A stretch of DNA of 64,000 bases from Erodium maritimum (taxonomy: Eukaryota; Streptophyta; Magnoliopsida; Geraniales; Geraniaceae): the NCBI GenBank assembly GCA_963921825.1, contig OY997589.1:248001-312000 (forward strand), written 5' to 3'. A program made the translations under genes and the position numbers. Of the stretch, positions 3,901 to 64,000 are shown piece by piece; the stretch's first letter is position 1; the number at the start of each line of letters is the position of its first letter. The notes beneath the pieces were generated by a model. The model worked only from the letters and a program-made list of their open reading frames with translations, was not told the DNA's origin and searched no databases.

Positions 3901-6900
3901 TCATCACAAATTTTTTATCACATCTTTTTTGCATGTCTTTTTATCAACACTGAACATTACCTTTATCAGCCCCAGTATAAAAAAATTGTGTTTCAAAGTA
4001 TACTCGTCAGTGGTCTTGACAGATAGATCTTGAAAAAATAAAAATATGTGTGCAAGAACGAAGCTAATCAGAGTTCAAAGGAAGCGAGAATGATTGAATT
4101 AATGAATTGATCAAGAAAACATACACTTGTCCACGTGGCAATGGCACGCTTTTATTACAATTTTGTCCTTGCTTGACTGAGTGAGGATGAGTTGTTTCCT
4201 AACTTTGGATTATTTTTGGTATTGGGTTGACAATATTGAAACTTGGGGTGCTAAAATACAATATAAACTATAAGTATTTTGTTAGAAATTATGTCTAACT
4301 TAGAACCCTCTCGGCAATCCTTGGTTCGGAGACTAAGCGTTTTCAAACCTTGGAAGAATCTTAGCCACCCCTTTGCTTGGGACCTTCTTCCAACTTCGTT
4401 GCATCTCAACTCACCAGCGATCAAAATACAATAAAAAAAATGAGAAACTCTTCCAATGCTATTGCAATTGAAATATTCATTACGAAATTTTAGTTTCGTG
4501 ATTAAACAAAACAACAAGTAGAGTTGATTTTATATACCTTCCACATGAGGTTGTATTGTCTAGGTAATAACCCTCTCAATAATGGAAAACTACAACTTCA
4601 ACTTTATGTACTTAGTTCGAGCCTCTATTTAGTTTTTGAAAACGATATAGGGAAAATTATACATAACTGTATCTAGTTTGACACATTTTTCACTTTATCC
4701 TACATAATTAAAAAACGTTTGTTTACGATACACTGTGTTACATTTCACTTTTCTCTAACGTCGTTAATTTTTCATCAAAGGGATCTAAAAAGTCCAAAGT
4801 ACTACTCACTAACCAATCAAGTATTTGGTTCTCGAAAACCTAAAAACTATGAAATGTCCAAATTAACCCTCATTAATCTTCAAATCTTCAAACTTTGTCA
4901 TTAAATTACTTATTTTTACTGGTTTCGTCATTATAATTGTTTTTAATTAATTTTTTTCTTTAATCATGATTTTATTTTATTTGTAGTTTTTTTTAATATA
5001 AATTCTTTAAAATTTTCATTAAAAAAAGTTATCTTTGATTAATTTTCCAAATTTCTATAATTTCATCATTTTTTCATAAATTTATTTTTATTGGCGATTT
5101 TTTTTCATACTTTAATTTTCTTTAAATTTTTATTAAAATTTAATTAACTCTTCTATTTTAATTTCAGTAAGTTTCATTAAGTCTTTATTTTTTTACTAAG
5201 TCTTTATTTTAATTTCACTGGTTCTTTTGTTCAGTTATTAATATTTTTTTCTTTCACTAAGTCTAGTAAGCATATATCCCTATCCTCTCCAAAAAAATCC
5301 TCAAGAACCAAAAATCCTTAGATTTTCAAAATAACAATTTTGTACCGATTTTAGAAAGAAAAAAAAATCAAATTTTCTACAAAATCTAGATTGCTTCTCG
5401 GCCCAGAGAAAAGGGAGTAGAGTAACTTAGGGATATTGGTACTTTCCGGATAGAGAGGCAAAGTGGAATTAAGCAGGGCCAGTGATTGGATGGTCGGTCA
5501 TCCCATCATCACGCCCGTCTTTCGAGGTCGTCAGTCCTCTAAAGGTTCGATGCAAACGGAAGCTGAAGGCACCACAATCCGAAACAGCCTCGACCTCTCT
5601 AGCACAAACCACCATAGCCATCGTGGCTTTTTTCGTGGGTCTCACTACACCGATGTCGTCCCATTCTAAATCAAAACAGGGTCATCCAGTGAAAACCCTA
5701 AGTATTTCTTCGGCACCAAGCAACCCCTCGTTGCTTCCTTCTCTCACCCACAGAGACGGTCGTGAGTCTCTGAGATCTTTGAGAAGAATCTCTTCATAGA
5801 AAGAGGAGCCTATCGACCAGGGAACCTTGAGGAATGAGGCGTGGGCATCATTGTGTGTTCCGCTTCCATTCCCAAAGTCATACTGAGTTCCAGTGATTCC
5901 CTCTCTACAGTTTGTCCTTACGTCGACATGAGGTAAATCCGTTGGCCCCTTGAAAAATCCTAGCACTTGTTGTTTCGATACCACCAAGCCTGCATAGCTC
6001 TCCTATGGCCAGTCTCCAAGAGAGCCTCTCCACCCATTCTCTTGGGGAGGAGGAAAACATGGAGGTGCTGGTCTCCTACATACCCGTCCACCCATTGTAC
6101 TGGCTCGCCAATAGTACAGTATGGTCGGTAAATTACAGGCCCTACGACCCCCCGAAATAAAATCATGCTAAGGATCATTACCAAAGCGTGGAGATGGTTG
6201 GCATCGAGATTTCTTATCAAGGACATCGGGCCAGAGATTTTGGGCTTTTACTTTTAGTCTGAGGATGCTCGTACATGGGTCCGGGGTAACAATTATGGGA
6301 CCATATCCGGGTATCCCTCACTTATACCAAGGTACCCATATTTTGATTTAATTTTTGGAGGAGTTGGCATGTGGCTCGGGAATGCGACCGGGAGATGCCA
6401 GGCGTCCAACGCTTTGACACATCGTTGTTGGAATTCCAACAGTTGCCGAAGAGCAAATACTATGCGGTAGATTGGACAGTCAAGGAATCCTCGACAATTC
6501 CACCAAGTTTTTGGGGCTTTGACCCTGAACACTGTACCTAAGGATCTATTACATCGAGACAGATGCCCGATAGTAACCCCGAACACTATACTTAACGGTA
6601 TAGTGGAAAAGTTCGGCGATCCAGGCTGGAAAAACTAGGAAGTAGGCCAAGCCTCAGGAAGCAGGATGACCGACGTCGAGGACCTCGTGAAGATCAGGCG
6701 TGGGCTAGAAAGCAGGCTCGCTAGGAGGAATGATAGACAATCATGGCTTCAGGGACTTGCCTTGGGAGGGGTCTCTGGTGAAAGTCATTCCTCCCTATGT
6801 TACTGAGGAGTTCAGGTACAGTCGCACTTTACATGGAAGCATGCAGCGTTTAGGCAATACCTTGAGCAATATTCATCAATTTCATCATTTCTCTAACCCC

Positions 6901-30554: not shown

Positions 30555-30730
30555 TTGGTCACATATTATTTATATTGTCATCCGTGATTAATAATTACAT
30601 TTGATTTAATTTACAATATTTACATGGTGTAAGCTAAACTCTTTGATCACATATTATTTATATTGTCATCCGTGATTAATAATTACATTTGATTTAATTT
30701 ACAATATTTACATGGTGTAAGCTAAACTCT
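30555..30730. repeat. 88-bp direct tandem duplication
   Basis: Two adjacent, practically identical 88-base units (about 30555-30642 and 30643-30730) contain TCACATATTATTTATATTG and end GTAAGCTAAACTCT. The near identity implies a recent slippage or replication event. The rest of 30379-31429 is AT-rich spacer with nothing recognised. Confidence 0.85.
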
Positions 30731-31446
30731 TAACCAAGCAGTAAAATCGGACATTAAATATTGCATAAGGAGAAAGTAAGCAAAATTGCTGCTAGAGAGT
30801 GACATATGAGGATTGCAACTTTTGACCAAAAATGGAGTGAAGTATGAAGTCTAGAAGACTTTCAAATGTATATGGAAGGTTGAATGAATCTATGCATAAT
30901 TGCATGATTGACCAAACTCTTTAAAAGGAGACACCCCCATCACCATCTCATTCTCTTTTGCCATTTCTATAATTCTACTTCTTTATTTATCTATTAATTA
31001 ATTAAATATTTTATCCACACAACCATCATCATCACCCCTCCAAATCAAACCTCCATTGCTCCACACCACATTTAATATTAATATGTTGACCAAACTTTTT
31101 CAAACACAACTATGCATCTTGCTTCATATTTGAACCGATATTAATTTGAGTTATAGTTAATGCAATGTAATTTAGGTTTTTAAATTAGAAAATAGAATAT
31201 AACATAAAGTTACATATTTTAATCCAAATCCATTGCTATTGTTGGATTAGAATGTAAAATAGATATCGAACTCTAAAAACACGATATATTGTAAAGCAAA
31301 CGTAAAATAAAAAAAATAAGAATTATCTTGAGTCATTAGGTTAAGTAGATTCAATGACCTATATTTTTTATAAGGAGGTGCTCAACAATAAAATAAAATT
31401 TTAAATTCTTCATATTTTTGGCTCATGTGAATCTTCTATTAAGTTT

Positions 31447-38250: not shown

Positions 38251-41200
38251 CTACCCGCCCTTACGCGAGTCTCTGTTAGCCAGTATCCGCCTCCGCTTGT
38301 ACACATTCTCGTATTTTTGCACATCGTCTTCCTCGCAGCTGTCCAAGATATTCTCTTTGCCAGTCTTCGGTTTGCGCTTGCACCCCAAACCGCGGTGGTA
38401 CCTATTCCCGTTGTGTTCCTGCATGTGTATGGGAAAACGAATGACACACGAGTATTGGTAAGTCGATATGCATTGATGATGATGAGTTATACACAAGTCT
38501 TACCCGGGATGTATTGGTTGATGCGTTTCTCTCGGGCGCTTGAGGAGCTCCATCGATATCTATGACAAAGGAAACGAGAGTATAAAAGGGATTGATCAAC
38601 CTACTTGAAGGTTTAAGTCCCAGGAATGGAGTCACTGAAGTCTTATTTCTCTCAACATTTTGTTGGGCCTCTTTGGGTTTCTCTCTGTACCGTCGGTTGG
38701 GCCTCTTTGATCTCTCACCAACTCTTGTTGAATCAAGTGACAAAAATAGACCTCCCTTCTACATAAGGGTTGTCTTGAGCCTAAATTGGCCTAGAAAAAT
38801 ACTTTAACTCGGGTCCATGAGATGAAACCTAGGTTCAAGTCCTGGTAACGGTGTCTCTGAAGCCTTATTTCTCCCAATTTCAGTTGGGCCTCTTTTGGCT
38901 TCTCTCCAATTTCGGCTTTGATCTCTCACCAACTCTTGCTGGGTCAAGTGGCAAAATTAAACCTCCCTTCTACATAAGAGGTGGTCGTGACCCCAAATCG
39001 ACCCAGAAAAATACTTGAACTTGGATCCATGAGATGAGACCAGGGTTTAAGTCCTGGTAACAGAATCTCTGAAGCCTTATTTCTCTGCAACTCGGCCCCC
39101 TTTGGGCTACTCTCTCCAACTTCGGTTGGGTTGCATTGTTCTCTCACCAACTCTGGTTGGGTCAAGTGACAAAACTAGACCTCCCTTCTACATAAGAGTT
39201 ATTGAGCCCAAACCGACCTAGAAAAATACTTGAACTTAGGTCTCCGAGATGAGGTAAGGGTTCAAGTCCAGGGAACGGTATCTTTGAAGCCTTATTTCTT
39301 TCTAACTTCAGTTGAGCCTCTTTGGGATTCACTCTCCAACTTCAGTTAGGCCTCTTTGATCCCTCACCCACTCTTGTTAGGTCAAGTGGCAAAAATACAC
39401 TTCCCTTCTACATAAGGGGGGGTCTTGAGCCCAAGTCTTGATACATTTAGTTAACTGCTGATCGAAAAACCTAGAAAAGTACTTTTAGAGTGTGTTTTGT
39501 AGCTATGTACCAGTTGTTTCATTTGTTATACTGGGTTTTGAGAGAAGCTTCTGGAACATCACAGTGCCTTGAAATACCAAGAATGGGTAACTCAAGAGCT
39601 GCAGCCTTTCAGAACGTGACATCTCTGAGAAGCCGAAGGAACCCTCCCATGTTTGCCTCAGCTGAGATATAGCTGGCAAAACTAGTCTCTCGACTCCTAT
39701 TCGATTAAGCAGCTGCAAATCAGTAGCACAAATGCACAATGAGATTCAATAACAGAATGGAGTATTGAAGGAGAGAAAGTTAAAGGATGATTACCTTCTC
39801 CAGCTCGTGCACGAGAATCCGACACATGCCCTGACGACGATATTTGAAATCAGTTGCAATTAAAGGCATCTCAGCAGCACTTTTTCCATGAATCCTGGAA
39901 GCGACAGCACAAAATTCAAATTGTTTGAATGCAAATCTATAAAACTGAAGTCCTGAAAAGATCACAGAATAAAAGAGATGAAACGACAAATACCTGACTG
40001 TGGCTACGCATACAAGCTCATCATCTTTTTGCAAAACCATTACATAAAATCCACGGAAATCCAACCTTTTTAGCTTTGACCTGAATACATAAAGAGAAGG
40101 ATTTGAAAACCATCCTCAAACTTTGGACAAGACAGTGTAGGAATAATTTAACAAGTCATTGTGTCGAGTCTGAAACAACATTGATGCAACACAACTATTG
40201 CTCAGAACTCAATTTAACAGTCATGACCCATATATGCCACAGGCTTGATACTGAGCTTTCTACTCAAAATACACCAAAAAACTTGTTCATTAATGAAAAA
40301 AAGAACATAGAATAAGTCTTAGCTCATAATTCTTAGTGCCTGTTTGGCCGAGCTTCTTCAACAGCTTTTACAGCACAGAAGCTAAAGATTGTTTGACAAT
40401 TAGTCATAATGCATCAGGATGGTCAACTATGGTAATATCCTTCAAAATTATTCTTGTAACACTTTAATATTGTCACTAATCAACTATCAAGCCTAAGCTC
40501 TCATATGTTTTTCCTCTCAGCAATACTGCTGCCAACCAGGTTTGGTCACGGGCCAATTAGGGACAGTACTAAGCTATCTTATGTACTAATCATCAAAATC
40601 AATAGTACAACTTCTATTGTAATTCGACAAAGATATTTGATGAAATTGAAATTTCATCATATTGGTGACAGTGGAGGCCCATATAGTCTTATAGATCCAA
40701 AACCAAAAGTAGAAGCTATGAATTGAAAATTTCCAGTTAGGCAGCAGCTGGAAGCTATTTCATGAATCAAATGAATATTTTCTCATATTCTTTTCGGTAA
40801 ACTTCACTGCAACAAACTTTACCCATTTCTAGTAGCATTACTGCTTTAAAATACATTTATTTGATGCAGGAATATATATATCCACAATGAATTTCTAATG
40901 AACCTTCAACCTTAAAGCTACTACATGTATTCTGAGCATATTTAAACTCTATTCATTGATGGCGAAACGGAAAAAAAAAACACCTTAAGTTCTCATTTCA
41001 GTTTTCAATTTTTGGTAAATTGAGAAAACAAATTTCAAGTATGCATAGTTAGAGAATCCTTACATTGAGCTAAAAACAATATCGCTTGACAGATCCCTCC
41101 CAGAATGGGGCTCAACGGTGGGCTCAAAACAGTCATGTATAACACCAAGAGCACGGACCAACTTCTTCCGTGTATCAATCCTAGAACCGCGCGAAATGTT

Positions 41201-44200
41201 GCAATCCTTCTGAATTGATGTTAAGAGAGTCCACGTTAAGCCATCCACAGCAGTAGGATTTGATATTCCCAATAGTTGATGAAGGTGGGAATATATCTGA
41301 AAGCAGTACAGAAATTACTACATGGTCATAAGACTCATAACAATGCTAGAATGACAAGAAAAGCCTGTTTTGAAGGCATGAAAACAAATACAGACAAAAA
41401 TCTGTTGTACAGTATGACAACAGACATCAGATATACAGTGAAGGTGCATATCCAGGCTTCATCAAATTAGATGAGCGTACGTGCGTAAGAGAGAGAGAGA
41501 GTCACTGCCAAGGTAACCAAAACATGCAAAATTATAAAATGTTTTGCAGAATCCAAACAGAACTTAGATGAATAATGGTAGTAGCATCAGCTCTACACAA
41601 TGGCACTAGATTGGCATATTTACCAGTACAAATGCCACACTAAGAGAAGATTATAAATAATGTATTAAAGAAGAATGTAAGGAACTCCTCAAACACATTT
41701 TTCTCATCCCTCCCTTCATCATCAAGACAGACTAAAAGACATATACCTTATGACAAGCATCACTGCAAAAACTTTCTGCTGAATTAAGCCCCGCATTAAT
41801 CAAGCAAACCACATGACCTACAAAACAAATTTAAAAAATGTTTGAATCTGCAAACTAAAGAAAGATAGGAGAGCACTACATGATAAAATGTAAGGAATTC
41901 TTGTCAACCAAACTTACATATGCGGTTGCACTGAGAGCAAGCCTTCGCAAACCGATTGTTTTTACTATTGCAATATCTCGACCCACATAAGCCACAGCGA
42001 CAAGATGGACAAAACCATCTTTCTTCAGGAATAACCTGAAAATCCCCCAACATTTATCAGAATGAACTGCAGAATATATTTCATTTTCCACACCGATAAC
42101 GATTGGAAAAGTATGAAAAACAAACATTGTCAAGCATAAAACACTAATTAATGAAAAGCATAGCCAAATGATCTATGAAACACACTTCAAAATAAAGAAA
42201 TTTAGCAAAATGCAACTATAAAAGTTTTTGTTTATCACAAAACAATACAATACCAAGCCAAAACAAACAAAATGATATGGTGACAGTAATTAGCTACCAG
42301 TGCCCTTTTCCTTACATGAAGAGTAACTGGCATCAATGAAAATCTCTCCCTCAACCCACACTAATAAGAATTTTACAAATCAATTATACGTGCTAAAGTA
42401 ATGATTCAAGGAGAGATAGGAATGCCATACCAGATTCCTTTAGGAGTTTATTGTCCTAAAAGAGTGTTTCACAGCATATGAGATATAGGAAATGGACAGG
42501 GAATACAGAAAGATCCAAGAAAAGGGACTCTATTTGATACCTTTTTCAGTAGAGAAACCCTCAGTAGGCATTTGCTGGTACTTATGGAATAATAGTAATG
42601 ACAAGTTGCTATTTGCTCATTAACTTGCATGAATTATATTAACACTCAAACAAAAAGCACTATTGCCCTTCCATACTTCTTTGCTAGTTTGAGACTATCC
42701 AAAAAGATTTACCATCTTGTTTATGAGACTAAATATTCTTGCGAGCAAGGACTGTACTTATCAATGATTAGGAACAAATGCATTCAGGAAAAGGGAAATA
42801 AAGAACAGAACAAGGAGCTTTAAGTTTCGGTGCCAAGGTATCAAAACCACCAATAACTTTTTGGAAAGCTCTTCTCAATAAACACAATCAAACATGAGAT
42901 ATAACATTAAAATATCTTCACTAATCAGAATATCTACAAAGATGAATTTTCTGTTTTACAAGAAACATAGGTTCATATGAACAATGAATCACACAATTCA
43001 AGACACATTAAAACCAAACGTCCAAAACAACGTGCCATAAATATTGATATGGAGAATTTCAACCCAGAACCAAATCAGGTCCAGAGATGTATAAAAATAC
43101 CTAAGTGAGGAATCTTCCACACAATGGACAGCAGTTTCATATGAACTTAAATACAACAAATAACAAAGATGGTGCCAAATAAGTCTGCCAGTCTAACTAA
43201 GATACACATCAAATCATGCTATCCCCGAATAAGTAGGAGACTAGTATTTTGTTTCAGCCAGTAGAAAGTAAAATTAAATTCATATACATATTACTATGCA
43301 GTACTAACATCAACAGCAAGCCAAGTTTGAAATTTTAACTGGAACAGACATGAATGATAAATGAAGGAAAAACACACCTTGAGGTCTATACAAGACATAT
43401 GGTAAGAGCATGGGCAGCAACCACAAAAGATAAGATCTTCCCCATAGTGACAAACAATGCATATTGTGTCCCTTAGTCGGTTGCGACTGATCCCCTTTCC
43501 CTTAAGCTTCCAAGGACTAGACACCATATCTTTGAGGTTGACATTTTGACCATAGTTTTCAACAGGCAGCGCTGAATGATGACCACTAGTAGATACTTCA
43601 TCCAGTGCATTTGTAGCATCTGACTTCTGCTTTTCCTCCTTTGAAATACACTTAATATTTGACTTGTATGGCTGAAATCTGTTTGAAACCCTTCTTTTTA
43701 TGTTCGAACGTTTCCTTTGGGTGGTGAAAAAAAGGGCAGCCCTTCTGCTCCTCAACTTTTCGGTGTAGGTGGGAATTATTAAATTACTCCTTAAAACAGT
43801 CAGACTCTTTTGAGAACTAGAAGCACCAAGAGGTAACTTGCTTTTCTTTCGTTTTTTGAATCTTTTATTCTGCACTAGTTGACTGTTATGAGCACGAGAC
43901 TGTCCCGAAACAATTTCCTTCTTTCTTGAAGAATAACATGGGACCTTCTTAGGATCATCCTGGCACACAAGGGGTGGTCCTGACTTTCCTACATATTCTA
44001 TCTTGCTTGACTGATTTTGGGTGGGAAGAGAAACAGGATGTACTTTGTTATTTTGAGCACAGTAATCACTGGGGAGCTGATCATGTTCACCTTCCACATG
44101 AGCATTACCCTCTGCCACAAAAGCCTCTGCTGTTACCTGTTCTTCCTGAAGAGTACTATTATCAACTCCATTTATATCAGGGTCCTGTTGCTGCTTTAGT

Positions 44201-45657
44201 TTATTTTCTGACCTCAAAGACCATTTCTTTCGTTTGGGTTCACCAAGTCTGTTTCTTTCTTCTTCCATATGCTTTGGTTCAACATTATCCAGAGAATCAT
44301 TATTTGTGCCCACAAAAGCATCTGATAAATGATTGATCAATTCAGACTGCTGATAATCTTCAGATCCATTTCCTTTCTTTCTAACTTTAAGAGCTCGAAT
44401 TCTGCGATTAGAAAGATTCTTACGACTTGATTTAACTGCAATTACATAGATAGTGTCCATGTAGTACTTCCTCCATAAACTCGGAATGCCACATGTCCAC
44501 TCTGCAATCATTTTTACAAACCCATAATTCTGTCTCAAATAAGACCAAACCTTCTTTACATAACCAGATAAGTGTTGTCCTCTTTCGAGCTCCTTAATTA
44601 TCTCCACCAAAACCCAGACACCACGATCTGTCCAAGTACCCATGAATTCATCCCATACACGACTTAACCGTAATTGAGTTACACTAAACTTTCCTTCATC
44701 AGCCTCATCTGGGAAAAAGACTGATCGTTCATTTGCATCATCATCATTGTCCAGAATTACACCTTCCCACCACGCATCGTCGATCCAAACATCAACACAA
44801 ACCCCAAAATGTAACTTAGACCCACATTGTTCTGGTTCATATGGGGGAGGCAGAGGTCGAATATGCCCACGATAGGTTGGTGAGACATAGCGCCGCTGAT
44901 GGAGGCCCTCAACTGCATTCGAGACGGAAATCGATTCGATAAGCATCAAATCACCAGTCTCAGCCAAAAGCTCATCATATTCAACGGAGCGACACAAGTA
45001 TGAGACACCAACAACCACTCCAGAGTACCACGACCCTCGCAGCCCTTTATCAAATTGCCGCACCTAGAAATTAACAAAAATATTGCCATCAATCTAATAT
45101 ACAACCCTAAGGTACCTAAAATAATGGTATAGAACTTCAATGTATAGAGGGAGACATCCAAATTAACCATTCAAATACAAATACAAAAAATCGATCAACA
45201 AGCACTCCCAAAATTAAACTCGTTCATAATTTGAACTCAATTTCCCCAACATTACTCATCAGGATCCCCAAAACACATCAAACAGAATTTAAGCATTCAA
45301 AGCACGTTGCAATTCAATTTCCGTGTACCAATACCAGAAACTCGTCGCCCAATAGACAGACTTCACTATCCCGACCACAAATCGACCAGACTCGCATACG
45401 ACCAGAAGAATTTTATCAACTAAAACGCGACACACTGTTTAAATCAGATACCAAATCCATATTTTCCACGTGATAATGGACCAAGACAAGCAAATCCAGA
45501 ATCAAAAATTCAAAATCACCAATCTACAATACACTCCCTCACTTCTCGATTTCCCGAGAACCAAACAGAATCTACCAGAAACACACACAGCCGATCAAAA
45601 ATTGAAATGTCCACCTACCTCAACCTTCTCGTTGAGAAGCAGCTTCTTCTGATTCAT
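38251..45657 (-). CDS. Agenet-PHD-GNAT chromatin protein (IDM1-like family)
   Basis: Probable nuclear histone acetyltransferase of the family that includes Arabidopsis IDM1, which links chromatin reading to active DNA demethylation. Exons on the minus strand, phase-consistent: 45619-45657, 43378-45063, 41918-42035, 41747-41817, 41064-41296, 39994-40080, 39795-39894, 39511-39712, 38504-38559, 38251-38418 (919 residues). A shorter form stops at 39503 if the last two exons are not used. The N-terminus is Agenet/Tudor-like (VRQFDKGLRGSWYSGVVVG, then VDVWIDDAWWEGVI). A basic middle follows. A PHD finger starts at about residue 548 (CIVCHYGEDLIFCGCC) and continues into exon 3 (WFCPSCRCGLC). The GNAT fold follows at about 700-810 with FYVMVLQKDDELVCVATVR and the acetyl-CoA loop YRRQGMCRILV. 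The tail is basic. It lies head-to-head with POLD1. Confidence 0.88.
38580..39430. repeat. Four tandem units of about 210-220 bp in the last-but-one PHD-gene intron
   Basis: Landmarks such as CTTCTACATAAG recur at about 38757, 38968, 39186 and 39407. Each unit also holds GGTTCAAGTCC-like sequence (similar to a tRNA B box) and CTCACCAACTCTTG. The units have diverged moderately, so the array is not new. If the two last PHD exons are real, the whole array is intronic. Confidence 0.85.
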
Positions 45658-50865: not shown

Positions 50866-51215
50866 AGCGGGTATATTTTTGTATTTTTCCCTAACAACAA
50901 CTTCAAGACTCCTAAAAGCAGAATTTGAAACTGAAACCCAATATTTACTCCAGCACTTAAACCCTTCCTCCCTAATAGTCATAAACTTCGAATTGTCATC
51001 ATCAACCTTGTAAATCCCCACAAGATAGAAACTTGACACAACTCTGTTCAAGATAAAATGCTCAAAATCACATCTCCAATCTCCATACCCCAACAATTCA
51101 TAAGTACTCATAACAACCCCAATACCAGTCGGCCATACAATCATTTCATAAGTTTGTGCTGTTAATTTGGAAGAGCATAACTTTAATTGCATCAATGTTA
51201 CTGATAGATATAACA
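50866..51215 (-). CDS. Unrecognised exon-like open frame
   Basis: On the minus strand an open frame (within 50809-51216) reads like real protein: TYEMIVWPTGIGVV, YGDWRCDFEHFILNRVVSS, EGFKCWSKYWVSVSNS, LEVVVREKYKNIP. I cannot name the family. It has no full gene context here. Its 3'-side portion as drawn on the plus strand (51029-51215) is repeated in each unit of the copia array. It may be a captured host-gene exon. Confidence 0.45.
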
Positions 51216-54200
51216 TATTTACTGTTACATCTCAACACTCAGGTTTTGAGATGTAACAGTACTAGTGAGCTTTATCCAGTCACTTCGTCCGTGTCTCTTG
51301 GTTCTCCCTCAGCTTTCACTGCTTTGTCTCCTCAGATTTGGCATTCCCGTTTGGGTCATCCTGGTGATCCGGTCTTCTCTTCTCTTCGTAGTCAAAATTT
51401 GATATCTTGTTCATCAAACAATAAACTGCCTGTTTGTCATTCTTGTGTTTTTGGCAAACATATTAAGTTGCCTTTTGTTTCTTCATTAAACACTACTCAT
51501 GCACCATTTGATATTATTCATGCTGATTTATGGACTACTCCTGTGTTAAGTATTGCTGGTCACCGTTATTACTTATTGCTTCTTGATGATTATACCAATT
51601 TTTTGTGGACTTTTCCTTTGGGTGCTAAATCGCAAGTCTTTTCAATATTTACTATGTTCATTGCTTACGTTCGCACTCAATTCAATTGTTCAATAAAAAG
51701 TTTTCAATGTGATAACGGAAAAGAATTTGATAACTCATCATTTCATCAGTTTTGTGTTACAACAGGAATGGTTTTTCGATTTTCATGTCCTAATACATCC
51801 TCTCAAAATGGTCGTGCAGAACGTAAAATACGTACTGTTAATAATATGGTTCGTACTTTGCTGTTTCATGCACATCTTCCCTCATCTTTTTGGCATCATG
51901 CCCTGCACATGTCCACCTACCTTCACAATGTTCTTCCTTCAAAATTACTGAATTTTTCCTCTCCAACTCAACTACTTTTTCATCGTACCCCCTCTTATCA
52001 TCATCTCCGAACATTTGGTTGTCTATGTTTCCCACTACTTCCCTCTAATACAATTCATAAGTTACAGTCTCGATCACGACCTTGTGTTTTTCTGGGTTAC
52101 CCTTCTCAGCATAGAGGATACAAATGTTTTGATATTGCTAATAACAAAATCATAATATGTAGACATGTTGTCTTTGATGAATCGGCTTTTCCCTATTCTT
52201 CGATTTCTAACCATAATTCTGCAGAATACTCCTTTTTGGATGATCTTTCGCCTTCCCTGCAGCTCCACTATCAACTCAATCATTCACACCCTGCAGCTCC
52301 CAGCACCGGTTCATCCTTCACCCCGGCCAGCCCATCTGTGTCTTCGCCTACCCAGTCCAGACAACCAGTCTCATCCACACCTGCTGGGCCCACAAGTCCC
52401 AGTCGGTCCAACCAGCTCGTGAGCCCAACCTCCATCTCACCCAGCCGACCCAGCTTGGTCCCCTCGGATCCGCCGTTGCCTACAACTCCACATCCCTCAC
52501 CAGTCCAGATCAATCCCCGTCCACCGCCACAGGTTCATCCTATGACCACCAGAAGCCGGACTGGTAATCTCAAACCTAAAGTCCTTTTTAATCTTCATTC
52601 TACCCTAGAACCATCCCCTATCCCGAAAAACCCTAAGCTTGCTCTAGATGACCCTAACTGGAAACTAGCAATACTTGACGAGTTTGAGGCTTTAATTAAC
52701 AATAAGACGTGGGAGTTAGTTCCTCGTCCTCCTAATACTAATGTGATTCGGTCTATGTGGGTTTTTCGTCATAAAAAACGGTCCGACGGTTCTTTTGAGC
52801 GGTATAAGGCTCGTCTTGTAGGTGATGGACGTTCTCAGCAGGTTGGCGTAGATTGTGACGAAACGTTCAGCCCAATGGTGAAACCGGCATCCATCCGCAC
52901 AGTGCTCAGCCTTGCAGTATCGCGTTCTTGGCCCATTCATCAGCTGGACGTCAAGAACGCTTTTCTGCATGGTCATCTTCAGGAGACAGTTTATATGCAT
53001 CAGCCAATGGGTTTTCGCAGTTCCTCCCACCCAGATCATGTGTGCTTATTGAAGCGCTCCCTCTATGGCTTGAAGCAAGCTCCTCGTGCCTGGTACCAGC
53101 GTTTCACAGACTTTGTGTCTACCATCGGCTTCACCCACAGCAAGTCTGATCACTCGTTGTTCGTTTATCGTCAGGGGTCCAACATCGCATATCTCCTCCT
53201 CTACGTGGACGACATCATTCTCACCACCTCGAGTGATGCTCTTCGCTGCTCTATTATGGATGCTTTGGACTCTGAGTTCGCGATGAAGGATCTCGGCCCG
53301 CTGTCATTTTTCTTGGGTATTTCTGTTTCCCGACACTCTGATGGGATGTTTCTATCTCAACGGAAGTATGCTGAAGATATTATCCACAGAGCTGGTATGA
53401 GTTCGTGTTCTCCATCTGCAACGCCCGTGGACACCAAGGCCAAAGTGAGTGCAGACTCCGGTCCTCCATTTGCTAATCCCACACTCTATCACAGTTTGGC
53501 TGGTGCATTGCAATACCTCACATTCACTCGTCCGGACATTTCATATGCTGTCCAGCAGATATGCCTTCACATGCATGACCCTCAGGACACCCACATGGGG
53601 GCGCTTAAGTGCATTATTCGCTACATACAGGGCACTCTGCATTTGGGTCTTCATTTGTACTCATCGAGCAATACTGACATGGTTGCTTATACGGACGCTG
53701 ATTGGGCTGGATGTCCTGACACTCGACGTTCCACATCGGGGTACTGTTTCTTCTTGGGCGATAATCTCATCTCCTGGTCTTCCAAGCGACAACCTACCAT
53801 TTCTCGATCGAGCACTGAGGCTGAGTACAGGGGTGTTGCGAACGTTGTTTCTGAATCTTGTTGGATACGTAACCTCCTTTTGGAACTACATTGTCCTTTA
53901 TCCAGATCCACCCTGGTGTACTACGACAATGTCAGTGCCATTTACTTATCCGGCAACCCGGTTCAGCATCAACGTACAAAACACATCGAGCTCGATATCC
54001 ATTTTGTCCGCGAGAAGGTTGCTAAAGGGCATATTCGAGTTCTTCATGTCCCTTCCAGGTCTCAGATAGCAGACATTTTTACGAAGGGACTCCCACATGT
54101 TCTTTTCTCTGATTTCAGGTCCAGTCTGAACGTCCTGCCTCCTCCCGTTCTGACTGCAGGGGCGTGATAGATATATTTGATATGTTCAGTTTGTAATTCA

Positions 54201-54298
54201 AATGTATCTAATCCTATACTGGATAACATATTTACATGTATTTAACACATTGACGTTAATGAGAAAAGGGCAACGAATCCTATTCCAACAGTTACCTC
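51029..54298 (+). mobile_element. Copia-derived tandem array, unit 1 (3,270 bp)
   Basis: The unit has about 190 bases of the exon-like host sequence, a fold-back, then a Ty1/copia pol segment in one open frame (51156-54167). The domains in order are GAG-pre-integrase, integrase core, a Pro/Ser-rich spacer, reverse transcriptase and RNase H. The style of the RNase H part suggests the Ale/Retrofit lineage (inference). LTR-like sequence starting TGATAGATATA follows at about 54165. No gag or paired LTRs are present, so this is an incomplete fossil. Its left edge is continuous with unique host-like sequence. Confidence 0.9.
51220..51261. repeat. 16-bp fold-back at the host/copia junction, repeated in every unit
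   Basis: TACTGTTACATCTCAA (51220-51235) and its perfect reverse complement (51246-51261) enclose a 10-base loop. The same hairpin recurs 3,270 bases apart near 54490, 57760 and 61030. Confidence 0.9.
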
Positions 54299-57200
54299 AA
54301 ACTTGACACAACTCTGTTCAAGATAAAATGCTCAAAATCACATCTCCAATCTCCATACCCCAACAATTCATAAGTACTCATAACAACCCCAATACCAGTC
54401 GGCCATACAATCATTTCATAAGTTTGTGCTGTTAATTTGGAAGAGCATAACTTTAATTGCATCAATGTTACTGATAGATATAACATATTTACTGTTACAT
54501 CTCAACACTCAGGTTTTGAGATGTAACAGTACTAGTGAGCTTTATCCAGTCACTTCGTCCGTGTCTCTTGGTTCTCCCTCAGCTTTCACTGCTTTGTCTC
54601 CTCAGATTTGGCATTCCCGTTTGGGTCATCCTGGTGATCCGGTCTTCTCTTCTCTTCGTAGTCAAAATTTGATATCTTGTTCATCAAACAATAAACTGCC
54701 TGTTTGTCATTCTTGTGTTTTTGGCAAACATATTAAGTTGCCTTTTGTTTCTTCATTAAACACTACTCATGCACCATTTGATATTATTCATGCTGATTTA
54801 TGGACTACTCCTGTGTTAAGTATTGCTGGTCACCGTTATTACTTATTGCTTCTTGATGATTATACCAATTTTTTGTGGACTTTTCCTTTGGGTGCTAAAT
54901 CGCAAGTCTTTTCAATATTTACTATGTTCATTGCTTACGTTCGCACTCAATTCAATTGTTCAATAAAAAGTTTTCAATGTGATAACGGAAAAGAATTTGA
55001 TAACTCATCATTTCATCAGTTTTGTGTTACAACAGGAATGGTTTTTCGATTTTCATGTCCTAATACATCCTCTCAAAATGGTCGTGCAGAACGTAAAATA
55101 CGTACTGTTAATAATATGGTTCGTACTTTGCTGTTTCATGCACATCTTCCCTCATCTTTTTGGCATCATGCCCTGCACATGTCCACCTACCTTCACAATG
55201 TTCTTCCTTCAAAATTACTGAATTTTTCCTCTCCAACTCAACTACTTTTTCATCGTACCCCCTCTTATCATCATCTCCGAACATTTGGTTGTCTATGTTT
55301 CCCACTACTTCCCTCTAATACAATTCATAAGTTACAGTCTCGATCACGACCTTGTGTTTTTCTGGGTTACCCTTCTCAGCATAGAGGATACAAATGTTTT
55401 GATATTGCTAATAACAAAATCATAATATGTAGACATGTTGTCTTTGATGAATCGGCTTTTCCCTATTCTTCGATTTCTAACCATAATTCTGCAGAATACT
55501 CCTTTTTGGATGATCTTTCGCCTTCCCTGCAGCTCCACTATCAACTCAATCATTCACACCCTGCAGCTCCCAGCACCGGTTCATCCTTCACCCCGGCCAG
55601 CCCATCTGTGTCTTCGCCTACCCAGTCCAGACAACCAGTCTCATCCACACCTGCTGGGCCCACAAGTCCCAGTCGGTCCAACCAGCTCGTGAGCCCAACC
55701 TCCATCTCACCCAGCCGACCCAGCTTGGTCCCCTCGGATCCGCCGTTGCCTACAACTCCACATCCCTCACCAGTCCAGATCAATCCCCGTCCACCGCCAC
55801 AGGTTCATCCTATGACCACCAGAAGCCGGACTGGTAATCTCAAACCTAAAGTCCTTTTTAATCTTCATTCTACCCTAGAACCATCCCCTATCCCGAAAAA
55901 CCCTAAGCTTGCTCTAGATGACCCTAACTGGAAACTAGCAATACTTGACGAGTTTGAGGCTTTAATTAACAATAAGACGTGGGAGTTAGTTCCTCGTCCT
56001 CCTAATACTAATGTGATTCGGTCTATGTGGGTTTTTCGTCATAAAAAACGGTCCGACGGTTCTTTTGAGCGGTATAAGGCTCGTCTTGTAGGTGATGGAC
56101 GTTCTCAGCAGGTTGGCGTAGATTGTGACGAAACGTTCAGCCCAATGGTGAAACCGGCATCCATCCGCACAGTGCTCAGCCTTGCAGTATCGCGTTCTTG
56201 GCCCATTCATCAGCTGGACGTCAAGAACGCTTTTCTGCATGGTCATCTTCAGGAGACAGTTTATATGCATCAGCCAATGGGTTTTCGCAGTTCCTCCCAC
56301 CCAGATCATGTGTGCTTATTGAAGCGCTCCCTCTATGGCTTGAAGCAAGCTCCTCGTGCCTGGTACCAGCGTTTCACAGACTTTGTGTCTACCATCGGCT
56401 TCACCCACAGCAAGTCTGATCACTCGTTGTTCGTTTATCGTCAGGGGTCCAACATCGCATATCTCCTCCTCTACGTGGACGACATCATTCTCACCACCTC
56501 GAGTGATGCTCTTCGCTGCTCTATTATGGATGCTTTGGACTCTGAGTTCGCGATGAAGGATCTCGGCCCGCTGTCATTTTTCTTGGGTATTTCTGTTTCC
56601 CGACACTCTGATGGGATGTTTCTATCTCAACGGAAGTATGCTGAAGATATTATCCACAGAGCTGGTATGAGTTCGTGTTCTCCATCTGCAACGCCCGTGG
56701 ACACCAAGGCCAAAGTGAGTGCAGACTCCGGTCCTCCATTTGCTAATCCCACACTCTATCACAGTTTGGCTGGTGCATTGCAATACCTCACATTCACTCG
56801 TCCGGACATTTCATATGCTGTCCAGCAGATATGCCTTCACATGCATGACCCTCAGGACACCCACATGGGGGCGCTTAAGTGCATTATTCGCTACATACAG
56901 GGCACTCTGCATTTGGGTCTTCATTTGTACTCATCGAGCAATACTGACATGGTTGCTTATACGGACGCTGATTGGGCTGGATGTCCTGACACTCGACGTT
57001 CCACATCGGGGTACTGTTTCTTCTTGGGCGATAATCTCATCTCCTGGTCTTCCAAGCGACAACCTACCATTTCTCGATCGAGCACTGAGGCTGAGTACAG
57101 GGGTGTTGCGAACGTTGTTTCTGAATCTTGTTGGATACGTAACCTCCTTTTGGAACTACATTGTCCTTTATCCAGATCCACCCTGGTGTACTACGACAAT

Positions 57201-57568
57201 GTCAGTGCCATTTACTTATCCGGCAACCCGGTTCAGCATCAACGTACAAAACACATCGAGCTCGATATCCATTTTGTCCGCGAGAAGGTTGCTAAAGGGC
57301 ATATTCGAGTTCTTCATGTCCCTTCCAGGTCTCAGATAGCAGACATTTTTACGAAGGGACTCCCACATGTTCTTTTCTCTGATTTCAGGTCCAGTCTGAA
57401 CGTCCTGCCTCCTCCCGTTCTGACTGCAGGGGCGTGATAGATATATTTGATATGTTCAGTTTGTAATTCAAATGTATCTAATCCTATACTGGATAACATA
57501 TTTACATGTATTTAACACATTGACGTTAATGAGAAAAGGGCAACGAATCCTATTCCAACAGTTACCTC
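54299..57568 (+). mobile_element. Copia-derived tandem array, unit 2 (3,270 bp)
   Basis: A head-to-tail repeat of unit 1. The translated pol frame (54426-57437) is identical to unit 1, and I see no base differences by eye. The join to unit 1 reads GTTACCTC then AAACTTGACAC, a junction absent from the array's left edge. Confidence 0.9.
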
Positions 57569-60500
57569 AAACTTGACACAACTCTGTTCAAGATAAAATG
57601 CTCAAAATCACATCTCCAATCTCCATACCCCAACAATTCATAAGTACTCATAACAACCCCAATACCAGTCGGCCATACAATCATTTCATAAGTTTGTGCT
57701 GTTAATTTGGAAGAGCATAACTTTAATTGCATCAATGTTACTGATAGATATAACATATTTACTGTTACATCTCAACACTCAGGTTTTGAGATGTAACAGT
57801 ACTAGTGAGCTTTATCCAGTCACTTCGTCCGTGTCTCTTGGTTCTCCCTCAGCTTTCACTGCTTTGTCTCCTCAGATTTGGCATTCCCGTTTGGGTCATC
57901 CTGGTGATCCGGTCTTCTCTTCTCTTCGTAGTCAAAATTTGATATCTTGTTCATCAAACAATAAACTGCCTGTTTGTCATTCTTGTGTTTTTGGCAAACA
58001 TATTAAGTTGCCTTTTGTTTCTTCATTAAACACTACTCATGCACCATTTGATATTATTCATGCTGATTTATGGACTACTCCTGTGTTAAGTATTGCTGGT
58101 CACCGTTATTACTTATTGCTTCTTGATGATTATACCAATTTTTTGTGGACTTTTCCTTTGGGTGCTAAATCGCAAGTCTTTTCAATATTTACTATGTTCA
58201 TTGCTTACGTTCGCACTCAATTCAATTGTTCAATAAAAAGTTTTCAATGTGATAACGGAAAAGAATTTGATAACTCATCATTTCATCAGTTTTGTGTTAC
58301 AACAGGAATGGTTTTTCGATTTTCATGTCCTAATACATCCTCTCAAAATGGTCGTGCAGAACGTAAAATACGTACTGTTAATAATATGGTTCGTACTTTG
58401 CTGTTTCATGCACATCTTCCCTCATCTTTTTGGCATCATGCCCTGCACATGTCCACCTACCTTCACAATGTTCTTCCTTCAAAATTACTGAATTTTTCCT
58501 CTCCAACTCAACTACTTTTTCATCGTACCCCCTCTTATCATCATCTCCGAACATTTGGTTGTCTATGTTTCCCACTACTTCCCTCTAATACAATTCATAA
58601 GTTACAGTCTCGATCACGACCTTGTGTTTTTCTGGGTTACCCTTCTCAGCATAGAGGATACAAATGTTTTGATATTGCTAATAACAAAATCATAATATGT
58701 AGACATGTTGTCTTTGATGAATCGGCTTTTCCCTATTCTTCGATTTCTAACCATAATTCTGCAGAATACTCCTTTTTGGATGATCTTTCGCCTTCCCTGC
58801 AGCTCCACTATCAACTCAATCATTCACACCCTGCAGCTCCCAGCACCGGTTCATCCTTCACCCCGGCCAGCCCATCTGTGTCTTCGCCTACCCAGTCCAG
58901 ACAACCAGTCTCATCCACACCTGCTGGGCCCACAAGTCCCAGTCGGTCCAACCAGCTCGTGAGCCCAACCTCCATCTCACCCAGCCGACCCAGCTTGGTC
59001 CCCTCGGATCCGCCGTTGCCTACAACTCCACATCCCTCACCAGTCCAGATCAATCCCCGTCCACCGCCACAGGTTCATCCTATGACCACCAGAAGCCGGA
59101 CTGGTAATCTCAAACCTAAAGTCCTTTTTAATCTTCATTCTACCCTAGAACCATCCCCTATCCCGAAAAACCCTAAGCTTGCTCTAGATGACCCTAACTG
59201 GAAACTAGCAATACTTGACGAGTTTGAGGCTTTAATTAACAATAAGACGTGGGAGTTAGTTCCTCGTCCTCCTAATACTAATGTGATTCGGTCTATGTGG
59301 GTTTTTCGTCATAAAAAACGGTCCGACGGTTCTTTTGAGCGGTATAAGGCTCGTCTTGTAGGTGATGGACGTTCTCAGCAGGTTGGCGTAGATTGTGACG
59401 AAACGTTCAGCCCAATGGTGAAACCGGCATCCATCCGCACAGTGCTCAGCCTTGCAGTATCGCGTTCTTGGCCCATTCATCAGCTGGACGTCAAGAACGC
59501 TTTTCTGCATGGTCATCTTCAGGAGACAGTTTATATGCATCAGCCAATGGGTTTTCGCAGTTCCTCCCACCCAGATCATGTGTGCTTATTGAAGCGCTCC
59601 CTCTATGGCTTGAAGCAAGCTCCTCGTGCCTGGTACCAGCGTTTCACAGACTTTGTGTCTACCATCGGCTTCACCCACAGCAAGTCTGATCACTCGTTGT
59701 TCGTTTATCGTCAGGGGTCCAACATCGCATATCTCCTCCTCTACGTGGACGACATCATTCTCACCACCTCGAGTGATGCTCTTCGCTGCTCTATTATGGA
59801 TGCTTTGGACTCTGAGTTCGCGATGAAGGATCTCGGCCCGCTGTCATTTTTCTTGGGTATTTCTGTTTCCCGACACTCTGATGGGATGTTTCTATCTCAA
59901 CGGAAGTATGCTGAAGATATTATCCACAGAGCTGGTATGAGTTCGTGTTCTCCATCTGCAACGCCCGTGGACACCAAGGCCAAAGTGAGTGCAGACTCCG
60001 GTCCTCCATTTGCTAATCCCACACTCTATCACAGTTTGGCTGGTGCATTGCAATACCTCACATTCACTCGTCCGGACATTTCATATGCTGTCCAGCAGAT
60101 ATGCCTTCACATGCATGACCCTCAGGACACCCACATGGGGGCGCTTAAGTGCATTATTCGCTACATACAGGGCACTCTGCATTTGGGTCTTCATTTGTAC
60201 TCATCGAGCAATACTGACATGGTTGCTTATACGGACGCTGATTGGGCTGGATGTCCTGACACTCGACGTTCCACATCGGGGTACTGTTTCTTCTTGGGCG
60301 ATAATCTCATCTCCTGGTCTTCCAAGCGACAACCTACCATTTCTCGATCGAGCACTGAGGCTGAGTACAGGGGTGTTGCGAACGTTGTTTCTGAATCTTG
60401 TTGGATACGTAACCTCCTTTTGGAACTACATTGTCCTTTATCCAGATCCACCCTGGTGTACTACGACAATGTCAGTGCCATTTACTTATCCGGCAACCCG

Positions 60501-60838
60501 GTTCAGCATCAACGTACAAAACACATCGAGCTCGATATCCATTTTGTCCGCGAGAAGGTTGCTAAAGGGCATATTCGAGTTCTTCATGTCCCTTCCAGGT
60601 CTCAGATAGCAGACATTTTTACGAAGGGACTCCCACATGTTCTTTTCTCTGATTTCAGGTCCAGTCTGAACGTCCTGCCTCCTCCCGTTCTGACTGCAGG
60701 GGCGTGATAGATATATTTGATATGTTCAGTTTGTAATTCAAATGTATCTAATCCTATACTGGATAACATATTTACATGTATTTAACACATTGACGTTAAT
60801 GAGAAAAGGGCAACGAATCCTATTCCAACAGTTACCTC
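57569..60838 (+). mobile_element. Copia-derived tandem array, unit 3 (3,270 bp)
   Basis: The third head-to-tail unit, with its pol frame at 57696-60707, apparently identical to units 1 and 2. Confidence 0.9.
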
Positions 60839-63800
60839 AAACTTGACACAACTCTGTTCAAGATAAAATGCTCAAAATCACATCTCCAATCTCCATACCC
60901 CAACAATTCATAAGTACTCATAACAACCCCAATACCAGTCGGCCATACAATCATTTCATAAGTTTGTGCTGTTAATTTGGAAGAGCATAACTTTAATTGC
61001 ATCAATGTTACTGATAGATATAACATATTTACTGTTACATCTCAACACTCAGGTTTTGAGATGTAACAGTACTAGTGAGCTTTATCCAGTCACTTCGTCC
61101 GTGTCTCTTGGTTCTCCCTCAGCTTTCACTGCTTTGTCTCCTCAGATTTGGCATTCCCGTTTGGGTCATCCTGGTGATCCGGTCTTCTCTTCTCTTCGTA
61201 GTCAAAATTTGATATCTTGTTCATCAAACAATAAACTGCCTGTTTGTCATTCTTGTGTTTTTGGCAAACATATTAAGTTGCCTTTTGTTTCTTCATTAAA
61301 CACTACTCATGCACCATTTGATATTATTCATGCTGATTTATGGACTACTCCTGTGTTAAGTATTGCTGGTCACCGTTATTACTTATTGCTTCTTGATGAT
61401 TATACCAATTTTTTGTGGACTTTTCCTTTGGGTGCTAAATCGCAAGTCTTTTCAATATTTACTATGTTCATTGCTTACGTTCGCACTCAATTCAATTGTT
61501 CAATAAAAAGTTTTCAATGTGATAACGGAAAAGAATTTGATAACTCATCATTTCATCAGTTTTGTGTTACAACAGGAATGGTTTTTCGATTTTCATGTCC
61601 TAATACATCCTCTCAAAATGGTCGTGCAGAACGTAAAATACGTACTGTTAATAATATGGTTCGTACTTTGCTGTTTCATGCACATCTTCCCTCATCTTTT
61701 TGGCATCATGCCCTGCACATGTCCACCTACCTTCACAATGTTCTTCCTTCAAAATTACTGAATTTTTCCTCTCCAACTCAACTACTTTTTCATCGTACCC
61801 CCTCTTATCATCATCTCCGAACATTTGGTTGTCTATGTTTCCCACTACTTCCCTCTAATACAATTCATAAGTTACAGTCTCGATCACGACCTTGTGTTTT
61901 TCTGGGTTACCCTTCTCAGCATAGAGGATACAAATGTTTTGATATTGCTAATAACAAAATCATAATATGTAGACATGTTGTCTTTGATGAATCGGCTTTT
62001 CCCTATTCTTCGATTTCTAACCATAATTCTGCAGAATACTCCTTTTTGGATGATCTTTCGCCTTCCCTGCAGCTCCACTATCAACTCAATCATTCACACC
62101 CTGCAGCTCCCAGCACCGGTTCATCCTTCACCCCGGCCAGCCCATCTGTGTCTTCGCCTACCCAGTCCAGACAACCAGTCTCATCCACACCTGCTGGGCC
62201 CACAAGTCCCAGTCGGTCCAACCAGCTCGTGAGCCCAACCTCCATCTCACCCAGCCGACCCAGCTTGGTCCCCTCGGATCCGCCGTTGCCTACAACTCCA
62301 CATCCCTCACCAGTCCAGATCAATCCCCGTCCACCGCCACAGGTTCATCCTATGACCACCAGAAGCCGGACTGGTAATCTCAAACCTAAAGTCCTTTTTA
62401 ATCTTCATTCTACCCTAGAACCATCCCCTATCCCGAAAAACCCTAAGCTTGCTCTAGATGACCCTAACTGGAAACTAGCAATACTTGACGAGTTTGAGGC
62501 TTTAATTAACAATAAGACGTGGGAGTTAGTTCCTCGTCCTCCTAATACTAATGTGATTCGGTCTATGTGGGTTTTTCGTCATAAAAAACGGTCCGACGGT
62601 TCTTTTGAGCGGTATAAGGCTCGTCTTGTAGGTGATGGACGTTCTCAGCAGGTTGGCGTAGATTGTGACGAAACGTTCAGCCCAATGGTGAAACCGGCAT
62701 CCATCCGCACAGTGCTCAGCCTTGCAGTATCGCGTTCTTGGCCCATTCATCAGCTGGACGTCAAGAACGCTTTTCTGCATGGTCATCTTCAGGAGACAGT
62801 TTATATGCATCAGCCAATGGGTTTTCGCAGTTCCTCCCACCCAGATCATGTGTGCTTATTGAAGCGCTCCCTCTATGGCTTGAAGCAAGCTCCTCGTGCC
62901 TGGTACCAGCGTTTCACAGACTTTGTGTCTACCATCGGCTTCACCCACAGCAAGTCTGATCACTCGTTGTTCGTTTATCGTCAGGGGTCCAACATCGCAT
63001 ATCTCCTCCTCTACGTGGACGACATCATTCTCACCACCTCGAGTGATGCTCTTCGCTGCTCTATTATGGATGCTTTGGACTCTGAGTTCGCGATGAAGGA
63101 TCTCGGCCCGCTGTCATTTTTCTTGGGTATTTCTGTTTCCCGACACTCTGATGGGATGTTTCTATCTCAACGGAAGTATGCTGAAGATATTATCCACAGA
63201 GCTGGTATGAGTTCGTGTTCTCCATCTGCAACGCCCGTGGACACCAAGGCCAAAGTGAGTGCAGACTCCGGTCCTCCATTTGCTAATCCCACACTCTATC
63301 ACAGTTTGGCTGGTGCATTGCAATACCTCACATTCACTCGTCCGGACATTTCATATGCTGTCCAGCAGATATGCCTTCACATGCATGACCCTCAGGACAC
63401 CCACATGGGGGCGCTTAAGTGCATTATTCGCTACATACAGGGCACTCTGCATTTGGGTCTTCATTTGTACTCATCGAGCAATACTGACATGGTTGCTTAT
63501 ACGGACGCTGATTGGGCTGGATGTCCTGACACTCGACGTTCCACATCGGGGTACTGTTTCTTCTTGGGCGATAATCTCATCTCCTGGTCTTCCAAGCGAC
63601 AACCTACCATTTCTCGATCGAGCACTGAGGCTGAGTACAGGGGTGTTGCGAACGTTGTTTCTGAATCTTGTTGGATACGTAACCTCCTTTTGGAACTACA
63701 TTGTCCTTTATCCAGATCCACCCTGGTGTACTACGACAATGTCAGTGCCATTTACTTATCCGGCAACCCGGTTCAGCATCAACGTACAAAACACATCGAG

Positions 63801-64000
63801 CTCGATATCCATTTTGTCCGCGAGAAGGTTGCTAAAGGGCATATTCGAGTTCTTCATGTCCCTTCCAGGTCTCAGATAGCAGACATTTTTACGAAGGGAC
63901 TCCCACATGTTCTTTTCTCTGATTTCAGGTCCAGTCTGAACGTCCTGCCTCCTCCCGTTCTGACTGCAGGGGCGTGATAGATATATTTGATATGTTCAGT
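60839..64000 (+). mobile_element. Copia-derived tandem array, unit 4 (cut by window end)
   Basis: The fourth unit, with its pol frame at 60966-63977. The window ends within the LTR-like part, 108 bases short of a full unit, so the array may continue beyond it. Confidence 0.9.

Follow-up and report, generated by a model that had tools for sequence, protein, structure and literature searches.

The right-hand part of the window, by which we mean the whole analysed stretch of 64,000 nucleotides (C2:248001-312000, in a 763-Mb genome of 40 contigs), raises the question of how a copia retrotransposon and a piece of host sequence came to be repeated together, head to tail, in perfect copies at a single locus. 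The window was compared with itself at an offset of 3270 bases and identical runs of at least 30 bases were listed, which gave one unbroken run. With the neighbouring DNA attached, the 3270-bp period was exact and free of mismatches from 51029 to 64245 (13,217 bp). The four 3,270-bp units which a first-pass annotation of the letters had placed at 51029, 54299, 57569 and 60839 were thus recovered at the same positions. The array crosses the window end; unit 4 ends at 64108 (C2:312108), 108 bases outside, and a fifth host copy without copia begins at 64109 and is followed by native host sequence. In the array, copia is present four times and the host segment five times (h1 to h5), the copy number being that given by the assembly. 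At the left edge native host sequence runs into h1, and at the right edge h5 runs into native host sequence.

One unit consists of 173 bp of host sequence, a Ty1/copia remnant of 3,089 bp, a second GTTAC and CTC. The host part had been put at about 190 bases per unit and is shorter, 173 bp plus the 3-bp CTC tail. The features of the array in window coordinates are as follows.

51029..51201, no strand assigned: host segment h1, 173 bp, joined without a break to native host sequence on the left; alignments to the host paralogues L024 and L025 run through the boundary at 51029.
51197-51201, no strand assigned: left target-site duplication GTTAC, the final 5 bases of h1.
51202..54290, plus strand: 5'-deleted Ty1/copia element, copy 1, 3,089 bp.
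51202..51222, plus strand: 5' LTR remnant, 21 bp, LTR bases 1-8 joined to 59-71 (numbering of the relative L028), read from the sequence.
51223..51235, minus strand: 13 bp of internal sequence (element 1991-2003, L028 numbering) copied in inverted orientation, forming a foldback with the following bases.
51114..54167, plus strand: 1017-codon open frame encoding the domains gag_pre-integrs, rve, SH3_retrovirus and RVT_2, starting inside the host segment.
54165..54290, plus strand: complete 3' LTR, 126 bp, TGATAG...CCAACA, present also as both LTRs of relatives.
54291..54298, no strand assigned: right target-site duplication GTTAC and host tail CTC, followed by the CTC/AAACTTG junction, at which the host segment begins anew.
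54299..57568, plus strand: unit 2, identical to unit 1.
57569..60838, plus strand: unit 3, identical to unit 1.
60839..64000, plus strand: unit 4, identical, running onward to C2:312108 and then into the copia-free host copy 5 and native host sequence (L010:109 onward).

The element was classified by its domains and ends. A 975-residue piece of the pol frame gave Pfam matches in the order gag_pre-integrs, rve, SH3_retrovirus, RVT_2, which is the copia order, with the integrase before an RVT_2-type reverse transcriptase as in Ty1/copia. Only part of an LTR had been assigned to each unit; the 3' LTR is in fact complete (unit positions 3137-3262) and bounded by TG..CA, and it is the 5' side of the array unit that is reduced to the 21-bp remnant. 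The lineage may be Ale, judged from the short LTR and the size. The element lacks LTR bases 9-58 as well as about 1.9 kb (L028 bases 72-1980), and its internal sequence restarts at L028 position 1981. Most of the 5' LTR is gone and the primer site and gag side are deleted in all four units, and the array element is a deletion derivative, not a complete autonomous Ty1/copia element. A probe for the deletion junction gave eight matches, four of them full-length and all in the array; the other four were short reverse-strand matches to the array's own foldback. A dispersed family of the deleted form was considered and found unsupported, the 5' junction being full-length in the array alone.

An in-frame ATG just upstream of the element (in AATGTTACTGATAG) reads across the foldback junction into the pol frame in each unit, as seen by eye. 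That the pol frame opens in the host segment with an in-frame ATG is probably a coincidence. The array element carries ten private changes (three synonymous, six non-synonymous and one non-coding), among which there was no sign of constraint on the pol frame; the frame is probably open owing to the youth of the copy.

GTTAC flanks the element of each unit on both sides as a 5-bp target-site duplication. Relatives were sought with the whole unit, which gave at least 66 matches (39 of 1,529 candidates scored; the array itself not among the matches listed), and ten were fetched. LTR pairs were found in 10/10 by self-comparison, and perfect 5-bp target duplications in 10/10 by eye from the printed ends. 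Because the array element is bounded by TG..CA and flanked by a perfect 5-bp target duplication, ordinary retrotransposition is the simplest account of how the copia part landed. In view of the perfect duplication, the idea that the element was brought in by a circle or a duplication instead was rejected. The first-pass annotation had denied that ordinary retrotransposition formed the unit; this fits the amplification step and does not apply to the arrival of the copia element. Template switching during reverse transcription is proposed, in the part of the source used here, to generate complex elements (PMC1950507), and it leaves the host part of the unit unexplained. One of the relatives, L033 (G000:C1:123683600-123693500), contains an internal direct duplication of 1,208 bp with 99.3% identity at 3113-5524 of the reverse-complemented locus.

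The five host copies were compared with each other and with paralogues elsewhere in the genome. Copies h1 to h4 are identical. Copy h5, without element, differs from them at positions 138, 162 and 172, i.e. at 3/176 bases or 1.7% (95% interval 0.35-5.0%), and also at 174-175, where copies 1-4 already read LTR. All three differences lie within the last 39 bp (chance about 0.011, calculated post hoc), and the first 137 bp show zero differences across all five copies. The host segment gave 19 matches, 14 of them elsewhere, and the joined flanks of the array were aligned with three of these paralogues. In L024 the left flank, the segment and the right flank aligned in one piece at 79.7% with 8 gap openings, and at 90.3% further on. 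In L025 a gap-free alignment at 90.9% covered the left flank plus 153 bp from the start of the segment, and part of the right flank further along matched at 82.1%. L026 aligned from segment base 7 into the right flank at 84.4% with 11 gap openings; its alignment to the joined flanks contained no match to the left flank. Judged by these alignments, the unrearranged locus most likely held one uninterrupted host segment. Since the paralogues show such an uninterrupted segment, the precursor of the array was probably host-copia-host.

Position 138 is T in the array copies and C in 3/3 paralogues; position 172 is split among them. A difference between the host copies that predated the insertion (A in the target-site duplications versus G in h5) was also considered and set aside, for this base cannot be polarised because the paralogues split, with A in L024 and L026 and G in L025. 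The host breakpoints CTCAAGCTTG and TAGAAACTTG have AA in common and, after one mismatch, CTTG (compared by eye). In the Pfam search, no family was found for the right-hand host part or the L024 frame, and the left host part gave a single match, to SWT1_3rd, below the cut-off (E 0.074). The effect of the insertion on the host gene-like sequence was probably interruption only.

The sequence directly shows the anatomy of the unit, the target-site duplication, the colinearity with an empty site, the two edges of the array and the identity of its units. The following course of events is proposed, of which we infer both the order and crossing over as the expansion step. A full Ty1/copia element would have inserted into host gene-like sequence by ordinary retrotransposition and left the GTTAC duplication. 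A template-switch or break-repair deletion would have removed most of the 5' LTR, the primer site and the gag side, with the foldback remaining. Most simply, this deletion preceded the amplification, because the full deletion junction matches only at the four array units. The insertion would then have stood between two direct 176-bp host copies; one of them contained the element, 3 bp from its right end, and the other was empty. The flanking copy may have come from an earlier 176-bp tandem duplication joined at the short AA / AAnCTTG match, or from an unequal join of the inserted allele with an empty allele. Finally, host-copia-host would have become (host-copia)4-host, very recently, by unequal homologous exchange between the host repeats.

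Insertion, flanking duplication and subsequent unequal exchange between host repeats are, in our judgement, the probable explanation of the array. As expected for such an exchange, four elements are accompanied by n+1 = 5 host copies, and the outer flanks are native and colinear with the unrearranged locus. The copia-free copy h5 at the right edge suggests that host repeats on either side of a single copia copy exchanged unequally. A probe for the element-to-host junction between units gave four full-length matches among the 30 listed, at C2:302240, 305510, 308780 and 312050. These are the four junctions, that at the right edge included, which (host-copia)4-host requires. At the left edge of the array the match started only from query base 60. 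The first-pass annotation had correctly stated that the inter-unit junction is absent there; the right edge, beyond its view, has one. Against unequal exchange counts the shortness of the repeat that has to pair, with about 137 bp identical and 176 bp with 3 differences. Because the first 137 bp of the five host copies are identical, no marker is available to locate the crossover. The differences of h5 in the last 39 bp fit an exchange within the first 137 bp and also fit the integration of a circle.

Such a circle, which the first-pass annotation had also named, was weighed as a rival. An extrachromosomal circle of host segment and copia, closed at CTC/AAACTTG and perhaps multimerised by rolling replication, could have entered an empty-site host segment by a single crossover; the locus would then, in the boldest reading, be the reintegration of a multimer into the empty allele, caught in the act. 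A single crossover predicts the arrangement A-(h-copia)n-h-B, in which the empty chromosome supplies the last h, and h5 is indeed empty, with its differences from h1 to h4 confined to the right end; insertion of one multimer would moreover provide four identical units in a single step. However, an excised circle and a surviving empty allele would be required, the same end product can be reached without a circle, and a full-length junction outside the array was not among the 30 matches listed. The circle route, in this boldest reading too, is regarded as rather unlikely.

An assembly error is considered unlikely as well. In that case the real unit number of the host-copia-host locus would be lower or higher, and its four perfect copies would have been created by the assembler or by polishing. 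A one-unit locus already contains every junction of the array and could be multiplied by a loop in the assembly graph, and perfect identity can also be a product of consensus polishing. On the other side, the assembly consists of 40 contigs, with C1-C9 at 62.6-158.6 Mb, which suggests long reads, and reads of at least 15 kb would cross the 13.2-kb array. The 19 host-segment, 8 deletion-junction and 30 inter-unit-junction matches listed are all on C1-C9, with no leftover contig among them, and no N occurs in the 164 kb around the array. Six contigs other than C1-C9 were looked at and measured 16.6-118 kb. The first 120 bases of C9 and C7 (L038, L046) are N, C2 and C8 differ in this, and the N stretches may be scaffold gaps.

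It is likewise unlikely that replication-based amplification (slippage or break-induced replication via the host repeat) took the place of meiotic unequal crossing over, for although the foldback deletion at 51223-51235 suggests that repair of the template-switch type acted on this copy, and perfect identity among units suits one copying burst, the foldback is common to all units and most simply older than the amplification, and the array itself holds nothing that separates replication from crossing over.

Ages were estimated for both the element, which is a young insertion, and the expansion of the array. The nearest relative of the array element is L027, with 1.06% difference. Against nine relatives (the outlier L036, diverged by 20%, was left out), ten private substitutions were counted in 2,919 sites, and the terminal branch was 0.0045. 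With a substitution rate of 7e-9 per site per year, the split of the array element from the sampled relatives dates to roughly 0.6 million years ago, and the insertion is younger. Because there is no difference in 4 x 3270 bases, a simultaneous expansion is bounded at about 33,000 years at this rate or 18,000 years at the alternative rate of 1.3e-8, both being general background values; the bound would not hold under gene conversion or consensus polishing. A very recent head-to-tail amplification, as first proposed, fits the perfect identity of the units.

The array was compared with known systems as far as these are described in the parts of the sources used here. Rice, Arabidopsis, almond and cotton are described as frequently carrying tandem LTR-retrotransposons, which in rice are highly polymorphic; these mostly show high identity, their copy number is polymorphic between accessions, and recombination is one of the origins considered (PMC11899658). 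The present array resembles them in its head-to-tail copies at one locus and its 5-bp target-site duplications. In contrast, their copies have internal LTRs in common (LTR-IN-LTR-IN-LTR), the rice examples belong mostly to gypsy, and for the two loci studied the authors prefer one insertion event as the origin (PMC11899658). Here the host segment is the shared repeat, each unit has its own pair of target-site duplications, and the element is a copia with hardly any 5' LTR left. A tandem element sharing one internal LTR was accordingly rejected as a class for this array, in which 176 bp of host sequence lie between units and each element has its own duplications.

The Cassandra and Wukong TRIMs also form tandem arrays of LTR elements, but these elements are short, non-coding and arranged in LTR-sharing units (PMC7215508, PMC4528315). 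Changes in the size of Cassandra arrays (PMC7215508) and the arrangement of Wukong (PMC4528315) are attributed to unequal crossing over, and the formation of Cassandra arrays is further traced to RNA structure and to reverse transcription (PMC7215508). The parts of these two sources used here contain no mention of a host spacer in the arrays. Maize P1-wr, with eleven head-to-tail repeats of 12 kb at one locus, is likewise attributed to unequal crossing over; it is, however, a gene array with polymorphic units, whereas the array described here is perfect, has 3.27-kb units and contains a retroelement (PMC2686159). In satellites derived from LTR-retrotransposons, retrotransposon sequence has similarly turned into a tandem repeat, but they expand from short arrays inside elements, and here the unit joins element and host at one locus in four units (PMC7004042). 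Satellite DNA as a class, with long arrays commonly at several loci, was rejected for the present array of four units at one locus, the junction probes being full-length only there.

An array spaced by host DNA was not found among the titles and abstract openings listed by searches of the literature on tandem retrotransposon arrays, which does not prove its absence. The array is real in the assembly, is well explained by known processes, and is a clean case of the birth of an array in which insertion, deletion, flanking duplication and amplification each left a readable junction. Its unusual point is amplification via a host repeat and not via the LTR. It illustrates how one LTR-retrotransposon insertion beside a short repeat of host DNA can give rise to a tandem array.

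The neighbourhood of the array was also inspected. The next gene rightward (L010:3080-3699) encodes a family B DNA polymerase (DNA_pol_B_exo1), which we take to be the delta catalytic subunit; its likely start codon, at L010:1463, is separated from the last host copy by about 1.2 kb. To the left of the array, an open frame of 589 codons with an Agenet domain lies at 43297-45063 on the minus strand. Three further tandem repeats were noted in the window: an array of 212-bp units at 38705-39434 (3.4 copies, 76% matches), an 88-bp unit present twice at 30555-30731 (98% matches), and about 30 copies of a degenerate 22-bp repeat at 3276-3921.
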